Origin: Opitutia bacterium
GTDB taxonomy: Bacteria > Verrucomicrobiota > Kiritimatiellia > CAIQIC01 > Lenti-01
Reading direction: 5' to 3'
DNA: 41,559 nt
NCBI GenBank assembly: GCA_009928955.1
Contig: SABN01000017.1
Location: 1-41,559 of the forward strand
Positions 5,638 through 28,616 of the stretch are shown here, piece after piece; the stretch's first letter is position 1; every line of letters begins with the position of its first letter. The notes below the pieces were generated by a model. The model made no database searches and was not told the origin of the DNA. It saw only the letters and a program-made list of their open reading frames with translations. The translations under genes were made by a program, and so were the position numbers.

Positions 5638-6717
5638 ATGAAGAAATCCCTTTGCTCGATCGCCTTGGCCTTGGCCGTCCGGTGCGCCCTGCCGGCCATC
5701 GGCGCGGAGCCCCCCCCTTTGTTCTCCCCGGATCCTCCGGAACCCGGCGCCGCCGCGCTGGCCGAATCCTATCTGCCCCTGCTGGCCGCCGGCCAGTTCG
5801 AGCAGGCGCTGGCCTTGAACGACTTGCGCGGCATGCGCCAGTACCTCCTCGAACGCCGCCTGGCCGATCTCCAATCCAAAAACCCGGAACTGACCGCGCA
5901 AGACGTCGAAACGATGTCGGCCCAGATCCAACTGCACGACCTGAACCCCGCCCGCCTGCAAGACATCCTCCTGCAGGTGATGAAAAGCAGCGGCTATGAG
6001 GGCATGACATGGCAGATCCGGGGGTATGCCCCCGCGCCGGAAGCGCTCGGCGGCCATCTGGTCAGCATCGACGCCCGAACGGCCGCGGGAAAGGAAAAGC
6101 CCATTCTGCTCGGCATCAAAAAGCTCGGCGAACAATGGATGGTGGCGCCGGAGATCATCGAAGAGCTGATGGGGCGCAAATCGGTCGTCCATGTGGTGCC
6201 CGCCGGGCCGCCGCCGGGCGAAGTGGCGGCCACGGTGGACGCGTTCTGGCAAGAGTGGCGGAACGGCGATCTGGACCAGGCCTATGCGCTGTTCGGCGCG
6301 GAATATCGCGCGCGGACATCCTTGCTTTCCTTCCTCCAACAGGCGCAATCGGTCATCGCGAAGATCGGAGCGCCCGCCTCGTGGAAAATCGTGCAAAGCC
6401 GCGAGCTCGCCCCGGCCGTCTTGGGGCTCGGCGTGGACGTCCAAGGTGCGGCGGCGACCTTGCAGACCATCATGGTCTTCCGCAAGATCGGCGAAACCTG
6501 GGTGCTGATGGACAGCCAGTTCCGGCTGGCGCCCGCCGGAGCGGCCCCCGCCGCGCCGTCCGTTCTCCCCCGGTCCCGCCCGGACCTCCGGCCCGACCTG
6601 AAGCCCTCGCTGGAGCCCTTCTCCCCGCCCCCGGCCCCGGCGGAGCCGCCCCCGGCCCCGGCGGCAACCACCGCCCCGGCCCAGCCGGCGGCGCCCGTCG
6701 GCCCCGACGGCCAATGA
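5638..6717 (+). CDS. secreted DUF4019-like protein with Pro/Ala-rich tail
   Basis: A 359-residue exported protein of unknown function. It has an N-terminal signal peptide (positively charged MKKSL, hydrophobic core, cleavage after AIGA). Residues about 35-175 form a mostly helical-looking domain I do not recognise. Residues about 195-285 (FWQEWRNGDLDQAYALFGAEYRAR ... IMVFRKIGETWVLMDSQFR) resemble the DUF4019 / NTF2-like envelope domain. The last 75 residues are a Pro/Ala-rich low-complexity tail. GGAG lies 7 nt before the ATG. It is followed after 56 nt by the glycosyltransferase fusion and could be co-transcribed. The DUF4019 link is by pattern only. Confidence 0.7.
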   Translation: MKKSLCSIALALAVRCALPAIGAEPPPLFSPDPPEPGAAALAESYLPLLAAGQFEQALALNDLRGMRQYLLERRLADLQSKNPELTAQDVETMSAQIQLHDLNPARLQDILLQVMKSSGYEGMTWQIRGYAPAPEALGGHLVSIDARTAAGKEKPILLGIKKLGEQWMVAPEIIEELMGRKSVVHVVPAGPPPGEVAATVDAFWQEWRNGDLDQAYALFGAEYRARTSLLSFLQQAQSVIAKIGAPASWKIVQSRELAPAVLGLGVDVQGAAATLQTIMVFRKIGETWVLMDSQFRLAPAGAAPAAPSVLPRSRPDLRPDLKPSLEPFSPPPAPAEPPPAPAATTAPAQPAAPVGPDGQ

Positions 6718-8941: not shown

Positions 8942-10232
8942 GCGTTTTCTCCGATCCTCCGGTGGACCACCGGAAGGTTTTTTCCGTCAAGGCGCCCATG
9001 GCGCCGAATTGCACCGACCGCATCGGCGTCCAGCGGGCGATCGCCGACCGCGGCCGCGCCCGCCGCGCCGCCTTCAGCCAGGCCTCCGTGCCCGCGACCG
9101 ACGTCGCCGCGCCGTCCAGCGCGTAGAGGTTCACCCGCCGCACGCCGCACCCCAGCACCGTTCCCACCGCTTCCTCCAGATCGTAGACGCTCCGCATGCC
9201 TTGCAGAAACCCGTAGAACGTCTCGCCGCCCCCGAACAGCGCCGCCCGCTCCGCGTTTTCGGGAATGGCGTCGTAGTCCCCGATCAGCCCCACGTCCATC
9301 GCCGCCCGCTCCCCGTACAGACGCTTCGCCAGCGCGGCATACCGGTTCACCATCGCCACGTACGACAGCTGGCTGGCCTGGTAGCGGTAGGTGATGAACG
9401 ACAAGACGTCCCACGCCACCCCGCTCACGGGCGCGTTCATCGCGTCTTCCAGCGCCACGTTGCCCCGCGCCTGCGCGTCGAGAAACGTCCGGTTCGCCGC
9501 CCCGTCCACCGCGTAGCCGCGCCTGCGCAGTTCCGCGACCAGCCGGTTGATCGCCGCGACGTCGCGATGGAACTGCCGCGCGTCCAGCTGGTCGCGCAAC
9601 ACCTGCGCCATCTGCCGCGGGCTCTTGGCCATCACTGCCTCGAACAGCTCCCGGCCCAGCAGCGGCGACGGCTCGCAGTCGAACGTGAACGCCCGCACGG
9701 CCAGGTTTTCCTGCTCGAAGAAATCCGCCGCCCGCCGCGCCAGCGCCCGCGTGGACTCCACGCTCGCCTGCCCCACGTACAGATGCTCCTCGTACGGCAG
9801 CAGCAGCCACGCATCCACCCCCACCCCCGCCCGCTCCGCCGCGCGCAGCAGCGGCGCGAAATCGGGATCCGCGAAGCTCTCCCGCTCCACGTGCAGGATC
9901 AGGTCGCAACCATGTTCCGCCAGCGCCGGCAGGTGCGCCGCCACCTCCGCGTACGGCAGAAACTCGCACCAGATCGCCAGCCGCTCGAGCGGCGGATCCA
10001 GAACAGGGGTCAGAACAGGGGTCTGTCCTTGCATTGTCGCAGGTTCCGCCCCCGCCCCCGCCGCCAGGCACAGCGCCGCGGCGCACGCCCCCCATGCGGC
10101 AATCCGCGGCATCACGTTTTCCACGCGGTGGAAAATCGTTTTCCACACCGTGGAAAATCCCCGGAAAAATTTTCCATCGCGTGGAAAAACCGGGCGGCGG
10201 CGCGGAAACAGGATGGAGCGGATCCCTCGCAT
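8892..10232 (-). CDS. secreted protein of unknown function with repeat-encoded N-terminal insert
   Basis: A 446-residue protein. The best start is the ATG at 10232, with AAAGGA 6 nt upstream. The first residues MRGIRSILFPRRRP are followed by about 27 residues encoded by three palindromic repeat units (10117-10188), then MPRIAAWGACAAALCLAAGAGA, a classic signal peptide. An internal ATG at 10112 would start exactly at that signal peptide but has no ribosome-binding site. The mature part has features of a TIM-barrel glycoside-hydrolase-like fold (WCEFLPY, TFDCEPS, VAWDVLSFITYRYQAS, GLIGDY, RVNLYALDGA), but I cannot name a family. The end overlaps maf by 50 nt. Either the signal peptide is functional with an unusual extension, or translation starts internally. 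Confidence 0.6.
   Translation of the reverse strand: MRGIRSILFPRRRPVFPRDGKFFRGFSTVWKTIFHRVENVMPRIAAWGACAAALCLAAGAGAEPATMQGQTPVLTPVLDPPLERLAIWCEFLPYAEVAAHLPALAEHGCDLILHVERESFADPDFAPLLRAAERAGVGVDAWLLLPYEEHLYVGQASVESTRALARRAADFFEQENLAVRAFTFDCEPSPLLGRELFEAVMAKSPRQMAQVLRDQLDARQFHRDVAAINRLVAELRRRGYAVDGAANRTFLDAQARGNVALEDAMNAPVSGVAWDVLSFITYRYQASQLSYVAMVNRYAALAKRLYGERAAMDVGLIGDYDAIPENAERAALFGGGETFYGFLQGMRSVYDLEEAVGTVLGCGVRRVNLYALDGAATSVAGTEAWLKAARRARPRSAIARWTPMRSVQFGAMGALTEKTFRWSTGGSEKTHGKLEFREPAGGAGQR
10117..10188. repeat. three 19-bp palindromic repeat units (TTTTCCAC-NNN-GTGGAAAA)
   Basis: Units lie at 10117-10135 (core GCG), 10139-10157 (core ACC) and 10170-10188 (core CGC, with one arm mismatch, TTTTCCAT). 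Each is an 8+8 bp inverted repeat around three variable bases. The three units are in three different phases relative to the reading frame of the 8892-10232 gene and are translated as FSTVWK-, FHRVEN- and FPRDGK-like peptides. The same repeat recurs at 22096-22293. Confidence 0.9.
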
Positions 10233-21747: not shown

Positions 21748-22602
21748 GTGATTCCGCAAGCCGTCATCCTGCTCGGGGGCAAAGGCACGCGCCTCGCCGC
21801 GCGCTTCCCCGACCGGCCCAAGGCCCTCGTCCCCGTCGCCGGCCGCCCCTTCCTCGAATGGCAGCTCGACTGGCTGAAGAAGAACGGCGTTTCGAGCGTC
21901 CTGCTCGCCAGCGGCCACCAGGCCGACGTCCTCGCGGCCTATCTCGCCGCGCGCCCCCCCGACGGCCTCGACCTCGTCCTCTCCCGCGAGCCTGCGCCCT
22001 TGGGCACCGGCGGCGCCTTGAAATTCGTCGAGCCCCGCCTCGCCACTGACCCCGTCCTCGTCTTCAACGGCGACTCCCTCACGCCGAACCTCGATTTTTC
22101 CACGGTGTGGAAAATAGCCGAGTGCCGAGCCCAAGCCGACAGGCGCGGGGCGAACGCGAGGTCTATAGCGCCGCGCACCTGCGCGGCGAGCGAGGGAGCA
22201 CCCGCGACCGCAGCGGCAACAGTTTTCCACAGTGTGGAAAAAAACGGCGAAGTTTTCCACGGTGTGGAAAAAAGTTTTCCACAGTGTGGAAAACTTTTCG
22301 TGGCGCCCATCGCGGAAGCCGGCCGCTACGGCACGGTGGAGTCCGACGCCGACGGCTGCGTGACCGCGTTCCGCGAAAAGGCGGAGCGCCGCGCGGGCTT
22401 CGTCAACACGGGCGTCTACCTGCTCCCGCGCGCGCTCATCGCCGCGATCCCGGCCGGGAAACCCGTCTCCATCGAGACGGAGATCTTCCCCGCGCTGGCC
22501 GCGCGGCGGGAACTCGTCGCGCTCCCGGCCCCGCCGCCCCTGCTCGACATGGGCACGCCCGACGGCCTGGCCGCCATGGAAGCGTTCCTGGGCGCCGGTT
22601 GA
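21748..22602 (+). CDS. sugar-phosphate nucleotidyltransferase with an in-frame repeat insertion
   Basis: A 284-residue protein of the NTP_transferase family (HddC/RfbA/ManC-like), which joins a sugar-1-phosphate to an NTP. It begins VIPQAVILLGGKGTRLAARFPDRPKALVPVAGRPFLEWQ and continues with GTGGALKF and FNGDS, the metal/nucleotide site. Directly after FNGDSLTPNLD the normal helix of about 20 residues is replaced by about 66 residues encoded by four palindromic repeats and a GC-rich segment (22096-22293). The fold then resumes at APIAEAGRYGTVESDADG through NTGVYLLPRAL and LLDMGTPDGLAAME. The frame stays open, so the protein may be made, but its activity is doubtful. The start is the GTG at 21748; no ribosome-binding site. 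Confidence 0.82.
   Translation: MIPQAVILLGGKGTRLAARFPDRPKALVPVAGRPFLEWQLDWLKKNGVSSVLLASGHQADVLAAYLAARPPDGLDLVLSREPAPLGTGGALKFVEPRLATDPVLVFNGDSLTPNLDFSTVWKIAECRAQADRRGANARSIAPRTCAASEGAPATAAATVFHSVEKNGEVFHGVEKSFPQCGKLFVAPIAEAGRYGTVESDADGCVTAFREKAERRAGFVNTGVYLLPRALIAAIPAGKPVSIETEIFPALAARRELVALPAPPPLLDMGTPDGLAAMEAFLGAG
22096..22293. repeat. four 19-bp palindromic repeats plus a nested GC hairpin inside a gene
   Basis: TTTTCCAC-NNN-GTGGAAAA units lie at 22096-22114 (GGT), 22223-22241 (AGT), 22253-22271 (GGT) and 22275-22293 (AGT). Between the first and second, 22115-22222 is a separate GC-rich block containing the hairpin CGCCGCGC (22169-22176) / GCGCGGCG (22181-22188). Together the 198 bp are exactly 66 codons and contain no stop in the frame of the nucleotidyltransferase. 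Confidence 0.92.
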
Positions 22603-23044: not shown

Positions 23045-23113
23045 GGCATGTTCATCTTTCTGTTTTTGATTGGATCTTCGGAACGGGCAATCAGTGGGAA
23101 TGTGGCGAGCGGA

Positions 23114-23146
23114 GACCCCCATGGCCTTGCGCCATGGGTGAACCAG
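23114..23146. repeat. REP-like hairpin behind the SUMF1 gene, copy 1
   Basis: CCCATGGC (23118-23125), a 5-nt loop and GCCATGGG (23131-23138) form a hairpin starting 20 nt after the stop at 23167. It is a 33-nt sequence matched by 25932-25964 at 27 of 33 positions; four of the six changes are two compensatory base-pair swaps in the stem. Confidence 0.8.
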
Positions 23147-23166
23147 GTTGGAAACAACCCGCGACA

Positions 23167-24294
23167 TCACGGCCCCCGCACGCACCGGAAGCCATTGACG
23201 CTTTCAACCGCGGCCGGCAACACCCAGGTGCGATCCGCGCACCGCACGTGGTTTGCACTGTTTACCAAACAGCCCCCGCGCATGACGCGCCAGGTCCCGT
23301 TGGTCGGCCCGCGCGGATCAATCGCATAGTTCGCTGAATAGGGGGCGTGCCAGTCCCAGCACCATTCCTGTACGTTGCCCGTCATGTCGTGAAGACCATA
23401 GCCATTGGCCGGGAAACTACCCGCCGGACTCGTATCGGTGAGGCGGTAATCCGGATGGTGGCCACGGGTGGGGCTGGTGTCGTAGGGATAGTTGGTCGAT
23501 GAATAATAAGTCGCCCACGCGTGCTGAATGGTGTCCCCGCCCCAAGGAAACAATTTCCGCTGGCGCCCGCCCCGCGCCGCCTTTTCCCATTCGGCCTCCG
23601 TCGGCAACCGATATCCATTGGCGCCCCAGTCCACGTAGTTGTTGTAGATGTTCAAATTCATGTTGCCGCGGTACACGCCGCTGGGTGTGCCGCCGGGCGG
23701 AATCGGATTCTCGTAATAGCAGGGGCGGAGTCCCTCCTTCTGGCTGCGGGCATTGCACCATTTGATGCATTCATACCAATTCAAATATTCGACGGGGTGG
23801 TTGGTGGCCGGGCTCGAGGCCGCCGCCGCGAATACATACCCGTTGGTGACCGCCCAATTCCACACCTCGAGATATTTCCCCCAGGTGACTTCCATTTCAT
23901 CCATCCAGAACCCGCTGATGAAATTGGTGTGCACGGGCGTCTCGATGCCGGCTTGCCCGAGTTCGACGTCGCCGCCGTCGATCCACACCATGCCTCTGGG
24001 CGGCGGGTTCGTGGCCATGACCACGCGGTAGAACATCGGCACCGCCACGCTGAAAGACCGGTTGGTCAGCGCGTCCACCGTGTTCAGCGGCTGGGCGGTG
24101 AACCGATGCCAGGGGCCGGTGGCCGCCGAGGCCCACTCCACGCGATAGATCGCATGGGTGTTGACTACGTTCGTCCACGTCACTTGCCCGTTGCCTTGGA
24201 CCGAGGTGATCACCGCGGTTTGCGCCAAGCTCGCCGTGGCCCAAATCCCGAGAAGCGCCGCCGCTCCCGCCCATCGCCGCGCGTTTTTGCTCAT
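23167..24294 (-). CDS. secreted SUMF1/FGE-domain protein A
   Basis: A 375-residue exported protein. The signal peptide (AAALLGIWATASLAQ) is followed by an 80-residue beta-rich N-terminal domain (ITSVQGNGQVTWTNVVNTHAIYRVEWASA). A formylglycine-generating-enzyme sulfatase-fold domain (about 100-375) follows, with MVWIDGGDVELGQ, FWMDEMEVTWGKY, GYRLPTEAEWEKAARGG, DMTGNVQEWCWD and NGFRCVRGP. The pair of active-site cysteines of true formylglycine-generating enzyme is absent: the region reads VMRGGCLVNSANHVRCADR. It is therefore unlikely to activate sulfatases and is more probably a carbohydrate- or ligand-binding relative. AAGGAG lies 8 nt before the ATG. It is a paralogue of the next minus-strand gene. 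Confidence 0.88.
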   Translation of the reverse strand: MSKNARRWAGAAALLGIWATASLAQTAVITSVQGNGQVTWTNVVNTHAIYRVEWASAATGPWHRFTAQPLNTVDALTNRSFSVAVPMFYRVVMATNPPPRGMVWIDGGDVELGQAGIETPVHTNFISGFWMDEMEVTWGKYLEVWNWAVTNGYVFAAAASSPATNHPVEYLNWYECIKWCNARSQKEGLRPCYYENPIPPGGTPSGVYRGNMNLNIYNNYVDWGANGYRLPTEAEWEKAARGGRQRKLFPWGGDTIQHAWATYYSSTNYPYDTSPTRGHHPDYRLTDTSPAGSFPANGYGLHDMTGNVQEWCWDWHAPYSANYAIDPRGPTNGTWRVMRGGCLVNSANHVRCADRTWVLPAAVESVNGFRCVRGP

Positions 24295-24645
24295 GAATTC
24301 TTCTCCTTGTTGCCAAATCCGATTCTGGATGAAAACCGTTCCCGCCGACTTCTCGCTTGGCTTTTTTCCCCCGACTTGTGCGGCGTCGCCCCGTCAGGGC
24401 GTACTCCGGGGGTGGACGGCACGTGCTCCGCATTCATCGGCGAATCCATGGCGAGGAGCCTGACCACCTGCAACTGGTTGGGCAAGGTCGAAAAGCGGCC
24501 AATGCAAATATTTTACGAGATTTTCACAATCCGGGTCCTCGCTGCCTTCCTGCCTGAACTTCTTCACCCACGTCACATGGGCGTGGGGATCGGGATCGGA
24601 GCCCCCCCCCGGGGGGGCCTTGCCCCGGCAATGATCGCCCGGCCG
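24295..24645. other. 351-nt intergenic region between the two SUMF1 genes
   Basis: No gene is supported here. The part next to 24294 must hold the promoter of SUMF1 gene A, but I see no convincing -35/-10 pair. The part next to 24646 holds the doublet repeat described separately. In between (about 24330-24560) is unremarkable sequence in which short open frames look accidental. Confidence 0.5.
24566..24635. repeat. REP-like doublet element, copy 3 (degenerate)
   Basis: Starts with a hairpin CCCACG (24568-24573) / CGTGGG (24582-24587), passes through GGGATCGGGATCGGAG, and ends in a GC-only second hairpin, 24601-24628, that includes C9G7. The layout matches the element at 25890-25964, and it ends about 10 nt after the stop of SUMF1 gene B. 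The second hairpin has drifted to homopolymers, so this copy is assigned by layout more than by identity. Confidence 0.6.
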
Positions 24646-25788
24646 TTACGGCCCCCGCACGCAACGGAAGCCATTGAGACGAAGAGGTTCGGCCGGGTCG
24701 ACGTTCTTCCGGGCGGCGCACCGCAGGTCGCTCGCCGTGGTCATCGCCGAACCGCCCCGCACCACGCGCGCCGTGCCGGTGTCGGTCCCGCGCGGATCCG
24801 TCGCATAGCCCGCCGCGTACGCCCCGGGCCGATCCCAGCACCATTCCGCCAGATTGCCCGCCATGTCGTACAGGCCATAGCCATTGGCCGGGAAACTCCC
24901 CACGGGGCTCAAGTAGGTTTCTTCGCCCGTTTCATAGTGGGGATGATAGCCCCGCGTCGGGCTGGTGTCGTAGGCCAAGGCATTGGTGCTAAAGTAGTTC
25001 GCCCGCGCGTGCTGGATCGTGTCGCCGCCCCAGGGGAACAACTTCCGCTGCCGCCCGCCCCGCGCCGCCTTTTCCCACTCCGCTTCGGTGGGCAAACGAT
25101 AGCCGGTTCCCGACCAGGTCACCCAGGAATTGCTCATGTTCAAGTTCCCGTAGCGGTAGATCCTGAAAACGGGATGCCCCTCGAAGAGAATGCGTTCGTG
25201 GTACACCGGCTGGAGTTTCTCCATTTCGCTGCGCGCGTTGCACCATTTGGCGGCGTCGTACCAACTGGCGAATGCGGGATGGTTGATGGTCAGACTCCAT
25301 CCGGAGGAGGAGGATCCGAATTCATAGCCGTTGTTCGTGGCCCAGGTGCGCACTTCGGCCCATTTTAGCGGCGTCACCTCCATCGCGTCCATCCAGAACC
25401 CGCTGATGAAATTGGTATGGACCGGGACGGCATCGCCCCCGACGCTGGCCTGCCCCAGTTCCACGTCCCCGCCGTCGATCCAGACCATCCCGGCCGGCGG
25501 CGGATTCGTGGCCATCACCACGCGGTAGAACATGGGCACCGCGACGGTGAACCCGGTGGCGGTGAGACCATCCACCGAGCCGACGTTGGCGAACGTCCGG
25601 TGCCAAGGGCCTTCGGCTTGCGCCGCCCATTCGACGCGATAGAGCGCGTTGGTGTTGACCGCGTTCGTCCAGGTCAGGCGGCCGTTCCCCGGGAACGACG
25701 CGATCGCCGCGCCCTGCCCCGGCGCCACCCCCGCCGACATCCCCAAGACCATCCCGACCACGGCCATCATCCGGCGCTGTCTCTTCAT
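24646..25788 (-). CDS. secreted SUMF1/FGE-domain protein B
   Basis: A 380-residue exported paralogue of the 23167-24294 protein. It has a signal peptide (MMAVVGMVLGMSAGVAPGQG), the same beta-rich N-domain (IASFPGNGRLTWTNAVNTNALYRVEWAA) and an FGE-fold domain with MVWIDGGDVELGQ, FWMDAMEVTPLKW, YRLPTEAEWEKAARGG, YDMAGNLAEWCWD and NGFRCVRGP. The catalytic-loop equivalent reads VVRGGSAMTTASDLRCAAR, again lacking the Cys pair. The ATG at 25788 is chosen because AAGGGA lies 7 nt upstream. The two copies share long blocks around FPWGGDTIQHA and SFPANGYGL, so they arose by tandem duplication. Role unknown; no sulfatase gene is in the window. Confidence 0.88.
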   Translation of the reverse strand: MKRQRRMMAVVGMVLGMSAGVAPGQGAAIASFPGNGRLTWTNAVNTNALYRVEWAAQAEGPWHRTFANVGSVDGLTATGFTVAVPMFYRVVMATNPPPAGMVWIDGGDVELGQASVGGDAVPVHTNFISGFWMDAMEVTPLKWAEVRTWATNNGYEFGSSSSGWSLTINHPAFASWYDAAKWCNARSEMEKLQPVYHERILFEGHPVFRIYRYGNLNMSNSWVTWSGTGYRLPTEAEWEKAARGGRQRKLFPWGGDTIQHARANYFSTNALAYDTSPTRGYHPHYETGEETYLSPVGSFPANGYGLYDMAGNLAEWCWDRPGAYAAGYATDPRGTDTGTARVVRGGSAMTTASDLRCAARKNVDPAEPLRLNGFRCVRGP

Positions 25789-25889
25789 GGCGTCTTCCCT
25801 TATGTCGTTCCCTGCCCGCAAACCCTATGGGGAAACTTTCCGCCTTCCATGTCCGATTGGCGAGCCTTTTCGATCCTCCGACCTCACTT

Positions 25890-25964
25890 ACCCACGCCCC
25901 AAGGGCACGGGGGTTGAGGATCGGGATCGAAGACCCCCACGGGCTTGTCCCGTGGGTGAATCAG
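25890..25964. repeat. REP-like doublet element behind clpB, copy 2
   Basis: Two adjacent hairpins are joined by TTGAGGATCGGGATCGAAGA. The second, CCCACGGG (25936-25943) with CCCGTGGG (25949-25956), is the counterpart of the hairpin at 23118-23138. The element ends 1 nt from the clpB stop codon (25966-25968), so it forms the 3' end of the clpB message or the block just beyond. Confidence 0.8.
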
Positions 25965-25965
25965 T

Positions 25966-28590
<2,625 letters not shown>

Positions 28591-28616
28591 GGGCGCATCC
28601 ATCCTTCCGACCGCCC

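Follow-up and report, generated by a model that had tools for sequence, protein, structure and literature searches.

The 3' ends of three consecutive genes in the window, which is the whole stretch of 41,559 nucleotides analysed here, carry short hairpins, and the question raised by this locus is whether such elements exist to serve the ends of messenger RNAs or are there for another reason. The sequence-only reading described them as REP-like, under selection for their folded form, and suggested a role at mRNA 3' ends. The genes concerned, identified from their Pfam matches as two SUMF1-like (FGE-sulfatase) genes and clpB, are all on the minus strand, which places the elements downstream of three stop codons in a row, with core-to-stop distances of 28, 58 and 9 nt behind gene A, gene B and clpB, respectively. 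The elements and their neighbours are arranged as follows:

23108..23151, plus strand: REP copy 1, type A, 3' of FGE-sulfatase gene A (covariance model E=1.6e-16; fold), with a GACC foot, stem 23118-23125/23131-23138, loop CTTGC and tail TGAACCAGGTT
23167..24294, minus strand: FGE-sulfatase (SUMF1-like) gene A (Pfam PF03781), a neighbour only
24554..24597, minus strand: REP copy 2, diverged and inverted, 3' of FGE-sulfatase gene B (covariance model E=8e-8, 32.9 bits)
24598..24635, plus strand: candidate degenerate inverted partner of copy 2, G/C-rich with a CCTTG loop remnant in its sequence
24646..25821, minus strand: FGE-sulfatase (SUMF1-like) gene B (Pfam PF03781), a neighbour only
25878..25921, minus strand: REP copy 3, inverted member of the pair behind clpB (covariance model E=1.8e-11)
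25926..25969, plus strand: REP copy 4, direct member of the pair (covariance model E=2.4e-17; ORF list)
25966..28602, minus strand: clpB (Pfam ClpB domains), a neighbour only

The FGE-sulfatase (SUMF1-like) genes at 23167-24294 and 24646-25821 are paralogues in tandem, adjoining clpB. Four copies in the window are recognised by a covariance model built from 31 copies of the family, with E-values of 2e-17 to 8e-8. Pairwise comparison of 23114-23146 with 25932-25964 reproduces exactly what had been reported for the outer hairpins, namely 27 identical positions out of 33 (the differences fall at 9, 12, 17, 18, 21 and 30) and two paired swaps that keep the stem, at 9/21 (T-A to C-G) and 12/18 (C-G to G-C). 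Both outer hairpins are predicted to fold into an 8-bp stem with a CTTGY loop. The third element has to be redrawn as an inverted pair, 25878-25921 (minus) and 25926-25969 (plus), in a BIME/REPIN-like arrangement. The middle element holds up in part: its left portion, 24554-24597 (minus), has broken stem pairing and an altered loop, yet it is still recognisable, and its right half, at about 24598-24635, gave no match to the family covariance model in the window scan. The tail of copy 4 overlaps the clpB stop codon (25966-25968); the termini of known REPs sometimes supply stop codons (PMC3733652). In Rfam, no family reached the gathering threshold in the window, and a single chance-level match fell below it.

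The window copies belong to a 44-nt family, of which 37 copies at E<=1e-5 were detected when the covariance model was run over the 3.4-Mb genome, and the consensus of which reads AGACC, an 8-bp stem, CTTGY, the returning stem and TGAATCAGGT. Selection on the folded form is borne out by covariation, both in the 31 own-genome copies from which the model was built and at homologous genes, where 133 distinct hairpins were compared. Among the 31 copies, 98.8% of the stem cells are paired, five of the eight stem pairs exhibit double-sided changes (28 cells), and the covariation score is 0.375, a value reached by none of 500 shuffles, compared to 0.118 in shuffled alignments; the pairing is destroyed when stem partners are slid out of register. 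About 30 of the 38 copies examined are intergenic by our own gene calls. Inverted pairs occur in the window (25878-25969) as well as in C130, C341, C215, C175 and C3, and arrays are present in G017. The family is accordingly a short palindrome dispersed in intergenic space in many copies, with inverted pairs and arrays, as are REPs and BIMEs/REPINs. The 5' foot tetranucleotide of REPs, GT[AG]G (or CGTC), does not appear in the consensus, which has the foot AGACC.

Two other kinds of repeat were observed alongside this family. A second hairpin family in the genome consists of CTTG-loop inverted pairs that are linked through AGCAAACTTTGC/AGCCAACTTGGC and lack the TGAATCAG tail (L061 1202-1262 in C14; L049, about C141:6810-6868; L056, about C341:27098-27165; L115 in C1; L116 in C175). 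The palindrome TTTTCCAC-NNN-GTGGAAAA is present in seven copies, at 10117-10188 and 22096-22293 of the window, with none expected in shuffles; the cluster at 22096-22293 sits within a nucleotidyltransferase ORF (21748-22602), and the palindrome also appears in L046 at about 9220-9340.

The gene with which the repeats are associated lies outside the window. An intact ORF of the same genome (G000, C116:13852-14640) codes for a protein of 263 aa with a Pfam Y1_Tnp match, and repeat copies are clustered around it on both sides. Further Y1_Tnp genes occur in the same genome on C99, C188, C214, C270, C273 and C332; they were considered as partners, and no repeat copy lies near any of them. Across 28 genomes of the order, the repeats occur in all seven that have a full-length or partial match to the gene, in 3 to 105 copies, and in six of the 21 that have no match, the remaining 15 having none (p=0.0014 for the association); the copies in the six genomes are explicable by gene loss or by incomplete MAGs. 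Full-length homologues in the order are also flanked by such hairpins, and at the homologue in G002 (45% identical) a stem of altered sequence is combined with a loop and flanks that still follow the pattern. The survey was extended to GTDB genomes, which yielded 55 homologous loci, mostly in the PVC superphylum, of which 52 were used to measure the density of hairpins with 8-bp stems and 4-5-nt loops. The density is 3.90/kb within 500 nt of the gene versus 0.19/kb more than 1 kb away; hairpins occur at 43 of the 52 loci, and on both sides of the gene at 33. The distribution of the gene is patchy (20 of 288 genomes of the phylum, with one or two copies each and one in the present genome), such that it does not form the multi-copy, near-identical element of IS200/IS605 type; it is a low-copy Y1/HUH gene flanked by its REPs, as in RAYT/TnpA-REP systems. 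The description of the hairpins as REP-like is thereby upheld and extended to a true REP/transposase association.

The hairpins around the homologues also reveal how far the folded element extends. The feet of relatives read GACC, GCCC, CTCC, CGCG and others. Type A flanks, GACC before the hairpin and TGAATCAG after it, recur among the 133 distinct hairpins, and the remaining combinations include GCCC with AGCGAAAG, CTCC with AAGG, CCCC with AGGG, CGCG with ACGG and GGCG with ACCG. Outside type A, the foot pairs with the bases that follow the first tail base in 79/92, 80/92 and 78/92 hairpins, compared to shuffle means of 46, 43 and 53 for the same three positions, and several pair types are seen; the folded element thus continues beyond the 8-bp stem, with a small internal loop in between. 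The window copies are of type A, in which the foot positions read GA/GA, so that Watson-Crick pairing is impossible; sheared G.A pairs in tandem could be accommodated there. Hairpins of one locus tend to have the outer tail (A-G-N-T-T) in common, and this tail may be considered a candidate cleavage region. At some loci the GTG start of the gene falls inside the repeat tail (TGGGTGAAGAAGGT); an apparent GTG AAG AAG start in the REP tail, or a TGAAGAAG tail variant nearby, is seen in L122 98-118, L159 3929-3949, L171 4742-4762 and L046 at about 5830-5865. A start within the tail could couple expression of the transposase to the hairpin.

The catalytic residues of the protein are divided between its two halves: without exception, the 44 full-length homologues carry Tyr119 and Gln123 in the N-terminal half, and the C-terminal half contains His210 and His212. 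Domain A (residues ~10-145) has kept Tyr119 and Gln123 and lost the HUH motif. Its profile aligns with IS200-type TnpAs over nearly the full length, Tyr helix included; the DHxH of the TnpAs falls where the HUH has been lost, and their catalytic Tyr motif falls on Tyr119. Domain B (~150-263) has kept the HUH histidines 210/212 and ends before the Tyr helix; its alignment to TnpAs covers their HUH part, and the Tyr helix of those TnpAs forms a separate alignment with domain A. In an AF2 model of the whole protein (pLDDT 88.8, pTM 0.87, with modest confidence in the Tyr helix, pLDDT ~67), the predicted fold of domain A matches TnpA 2ec2 (VIA-align Z 11.6, 101 residues, rmsd 2.8) and that of domain B matches TnpA 2xm3 (Z 9.3, 111 residues, rmsd 2.4; unrelated ferredoxin-like folds ranked below the TnpA chains and were disregarded). 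The Y1 TnpA fold and catalytic residues of the IS200/IS605 family are present, with the residues split between the halves. Domain B contains further tyrosines invariant in the 44 homologues, Y248 and Y255, which could in principle act.

In IS608 TnpA the active site is assembled in trans, the Tyr on the C-terminal helix alpha-D being combined with the HUH of the partner monomer (PMC5934647), and the Gln located four residues after the Tyr in TnpA is the third metal ligand (PMC6006769). The fused protein retains exactly one such set of Tyr/Gln and HUH and looks like a fused TnpA dimer with a single composite active site. The RAYT order, HUH followed by Tyr in one core domain, is not seen, since Tyr119 precedes H210/H212 in 44/44 homologues; nor is the Y---NP motif of RAYT class 2 (as defined in PMC6006769), the motif here being an invariant Y119xxxQ123. 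None of the 12 subclasses in the published scheme accommodates the fused family (PMC6006769). That classification admitted only proteins having HuH and Tyr inside one complete core domain (PMC6006769), and the family could therefore have been missed by design. A literature search among open-licence papers turned up no account of Y1 transposases that are tandem or have a split site.

The 3' flank of clpB was compared among six congeneric species. The sequence behind the gene is unrelated in five of the genomes and includes half a copy in the sixth. A clean pair of empty and filled sites was sought at these orthologous flanks and none was found; five species have flanks too diverged for this, and only the difference in presence and absence is recorded. 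As an observation in its own right, inverted repeats GGGGTCAGCCCTTAA...TTAAGGGCTGACCCC lie downstream of clpB in two congeners (L207 and L206), and their ends fit GGGG[AT][CG]A[CG], the consensus of TIR-associated tyrosine transposases (PMC6006769).

The location of the copies bears on the suggested role at transcript ends. Positional statistics were obtained from the stretches around 38 copies with a home-made codon-usage gene caller, for which starts are approximate and stops exact, and the set comprises the 30 intergenic copies for which a gene was called to the left and to the right. The bias downstream of stops is evident: 23 of the 30 lie within 100 nt of a stop versus 42% expected for random intergenic placement (p=1e-4), as do 16 of 21 independent sites once copies are collapsed (p=0.0014). 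A single copy of the 30 lies between divergent genes, versus 22% expected, and 18 of the 23 copies in tandem gaps are closer to the stop than to the next start. REPs of other bacteria can, in addition, stabilise mRNA (PMC6006769), and these facts together speak for hairpins that are terminators or RNA stabilisers under selection at mRNA 3' ends. Yet the orientation of the tandem-gap copies relative to the upstream gene is mixed (13 same, 10 opposite), terminator prediction called no terminator at the hairpins, and the T-tract that follows the hairpin of an intrinsic terminator is missing from a consensus without a T-run. The same kind of hairpin, moreover, flanks the transposase gene at the 43 of 52 distant loci noted above, and none of the six congeneric species has an intact copy behind clpB. 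The stop-proximal bias is itself general for REPs, the known families of which lie mostly between unidirectional or convergent genes, near 3' ends (PMC3733652), and the 3'-proximal distribution is consistent with insertions being tolerated at a distance from promoters. As the reason for the existence of the elements, a role at mRNA 3' ends is thus unsupported, and we regard it as unlikely, although a secondary effect on transcript ends, as a by-product, is possible. The association with a transposase explains the hairpins better than does an mRNA-end signal.

Two further explanations concern the gene rather than the position of its repeats. The C116 gene and its hairpins might form a conventional IS200/IS605 insertion sequence, the dispersed hairpins being remnants of IS ends or derived MITEs; the nearest solved relatives of both domains are indeed IS200/IS605 TnpAs, and Y---Q is the motif of class 1 TnpAs (PMC6006769). 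Such an origin is nevertheless improbable in view of one or two gene copies per genome against tens of hairpins, the REP-like organisation in inverted pairs and tandem arrays, and the fact that no tnpB was noticed, by incidental reading, near the C116 gene. The protein may instead be a catalytically dead or domesticated binder which uses the REPs as sites for another role, given that domain A lacks the HUH and domain B the Tyr helix, leaving each half inactive alone. Neutral decay, however, would not keep a complete one-site set of residues invariant in 44/44 homologues across several phyla, and this reading appears unlikely.

The hairpins are thus very probably REP elements recognised, and probably spread, by a fused TnpA-type transposase, the single-copy chromosomal gene of which has repeats of the family on either side. 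Binding would be to the 8-bp CTTGY hairpin with its foot, as single-stranded DNA, and Tyr119 would cut in or beside the conserved tail, for example on the single-stranded lagging-strand template, domains A and B together forming, once, the kind of composite site that an IS608-type TnpA dimer assembles twice in trans. Such activity would once have spread the repeats through the genome, and the copies would persist mainly behind stop codons because insertions do least harm there. It is also likely, with somewhat less assurance, that the family represents an unclassified HUH/Y1 branch spanning Kiritimatiellota, Verrucomicrobiota, Lentisphaerae and Planctomycetes, and that this branch arose by fusion of an IS200-type TnpA dimer into one chain with a single trans-type site, Tyr/Gln coming from one half and HUH from the other, its lineage-specific, co-evolving REPs being read through loop, stem and covarying foot as folded single-stranded DNA.

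An isolated sighting of hairpins thereby leads to a REP/transposase system in a superphylum where REPs have been little studied. Its transposase is an undescribed "two-in-one" single-strand DNA transposase and provides a natural means to examine the workings of Y1 transposases. If it is indeed a single-chain enzyme with one composite site, it would reveal if one cut site suffices for REP processing or two are required, and in what relation dimeric IS transposases stand to monomeric RAYTs. The combinations of foot, stem, loop and tail across ~45 loci provide ready data on recognition and on the choice of cleavage site.

Among known systems, the REPtrons of E. coli, Stenotrophomonas and Marinomonas (REP with TnpA-REP/RAYT) share with the present one short intergenic palindromes that are stop-proximal and form inverted pairs, and tens to about a hundred repeats which flank a low-copy Y1 transposase gene and are matched to it in type. 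Membership in the REP/RAYT group holds for this association, and ends with it: in place of one domain containing HUH and Tyr and a Y---NP motif, the protein has two fused Y1 domains, a split site and Y---Q, and its repeats, lacking GT[AG]G, have the foot GACC or a covarying NNCC/NNCG and a conserved 3' tail, TGAATCAG..T. The IS200/IS605 TnpAs of IS608 and ISDra2 resemble the protein in the fold of both domains and in the combination of the alpha-D Tyr and Gln with HUH in trans, as across the dimer interface (PMC5934647). They differ in being symmetric two-site dimers encoded by multi-copy IS, whereas the fused protein is a single chain with one possible site and its gene is not a multi-copy IS. 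TnpA-Y1 class 3 of Planctomycetes and Acidobacteria (PMC6006769) also has Q in the Y motif, atypical REP-like structures without GTAG, and PVC members; yet its proteins consist of a single core of ~178 aa with NHVH followed by Tyr, and its foot is CnGA, in contrast to the ~260 aa of the present protein, in which the Tyr precedes the HUH.
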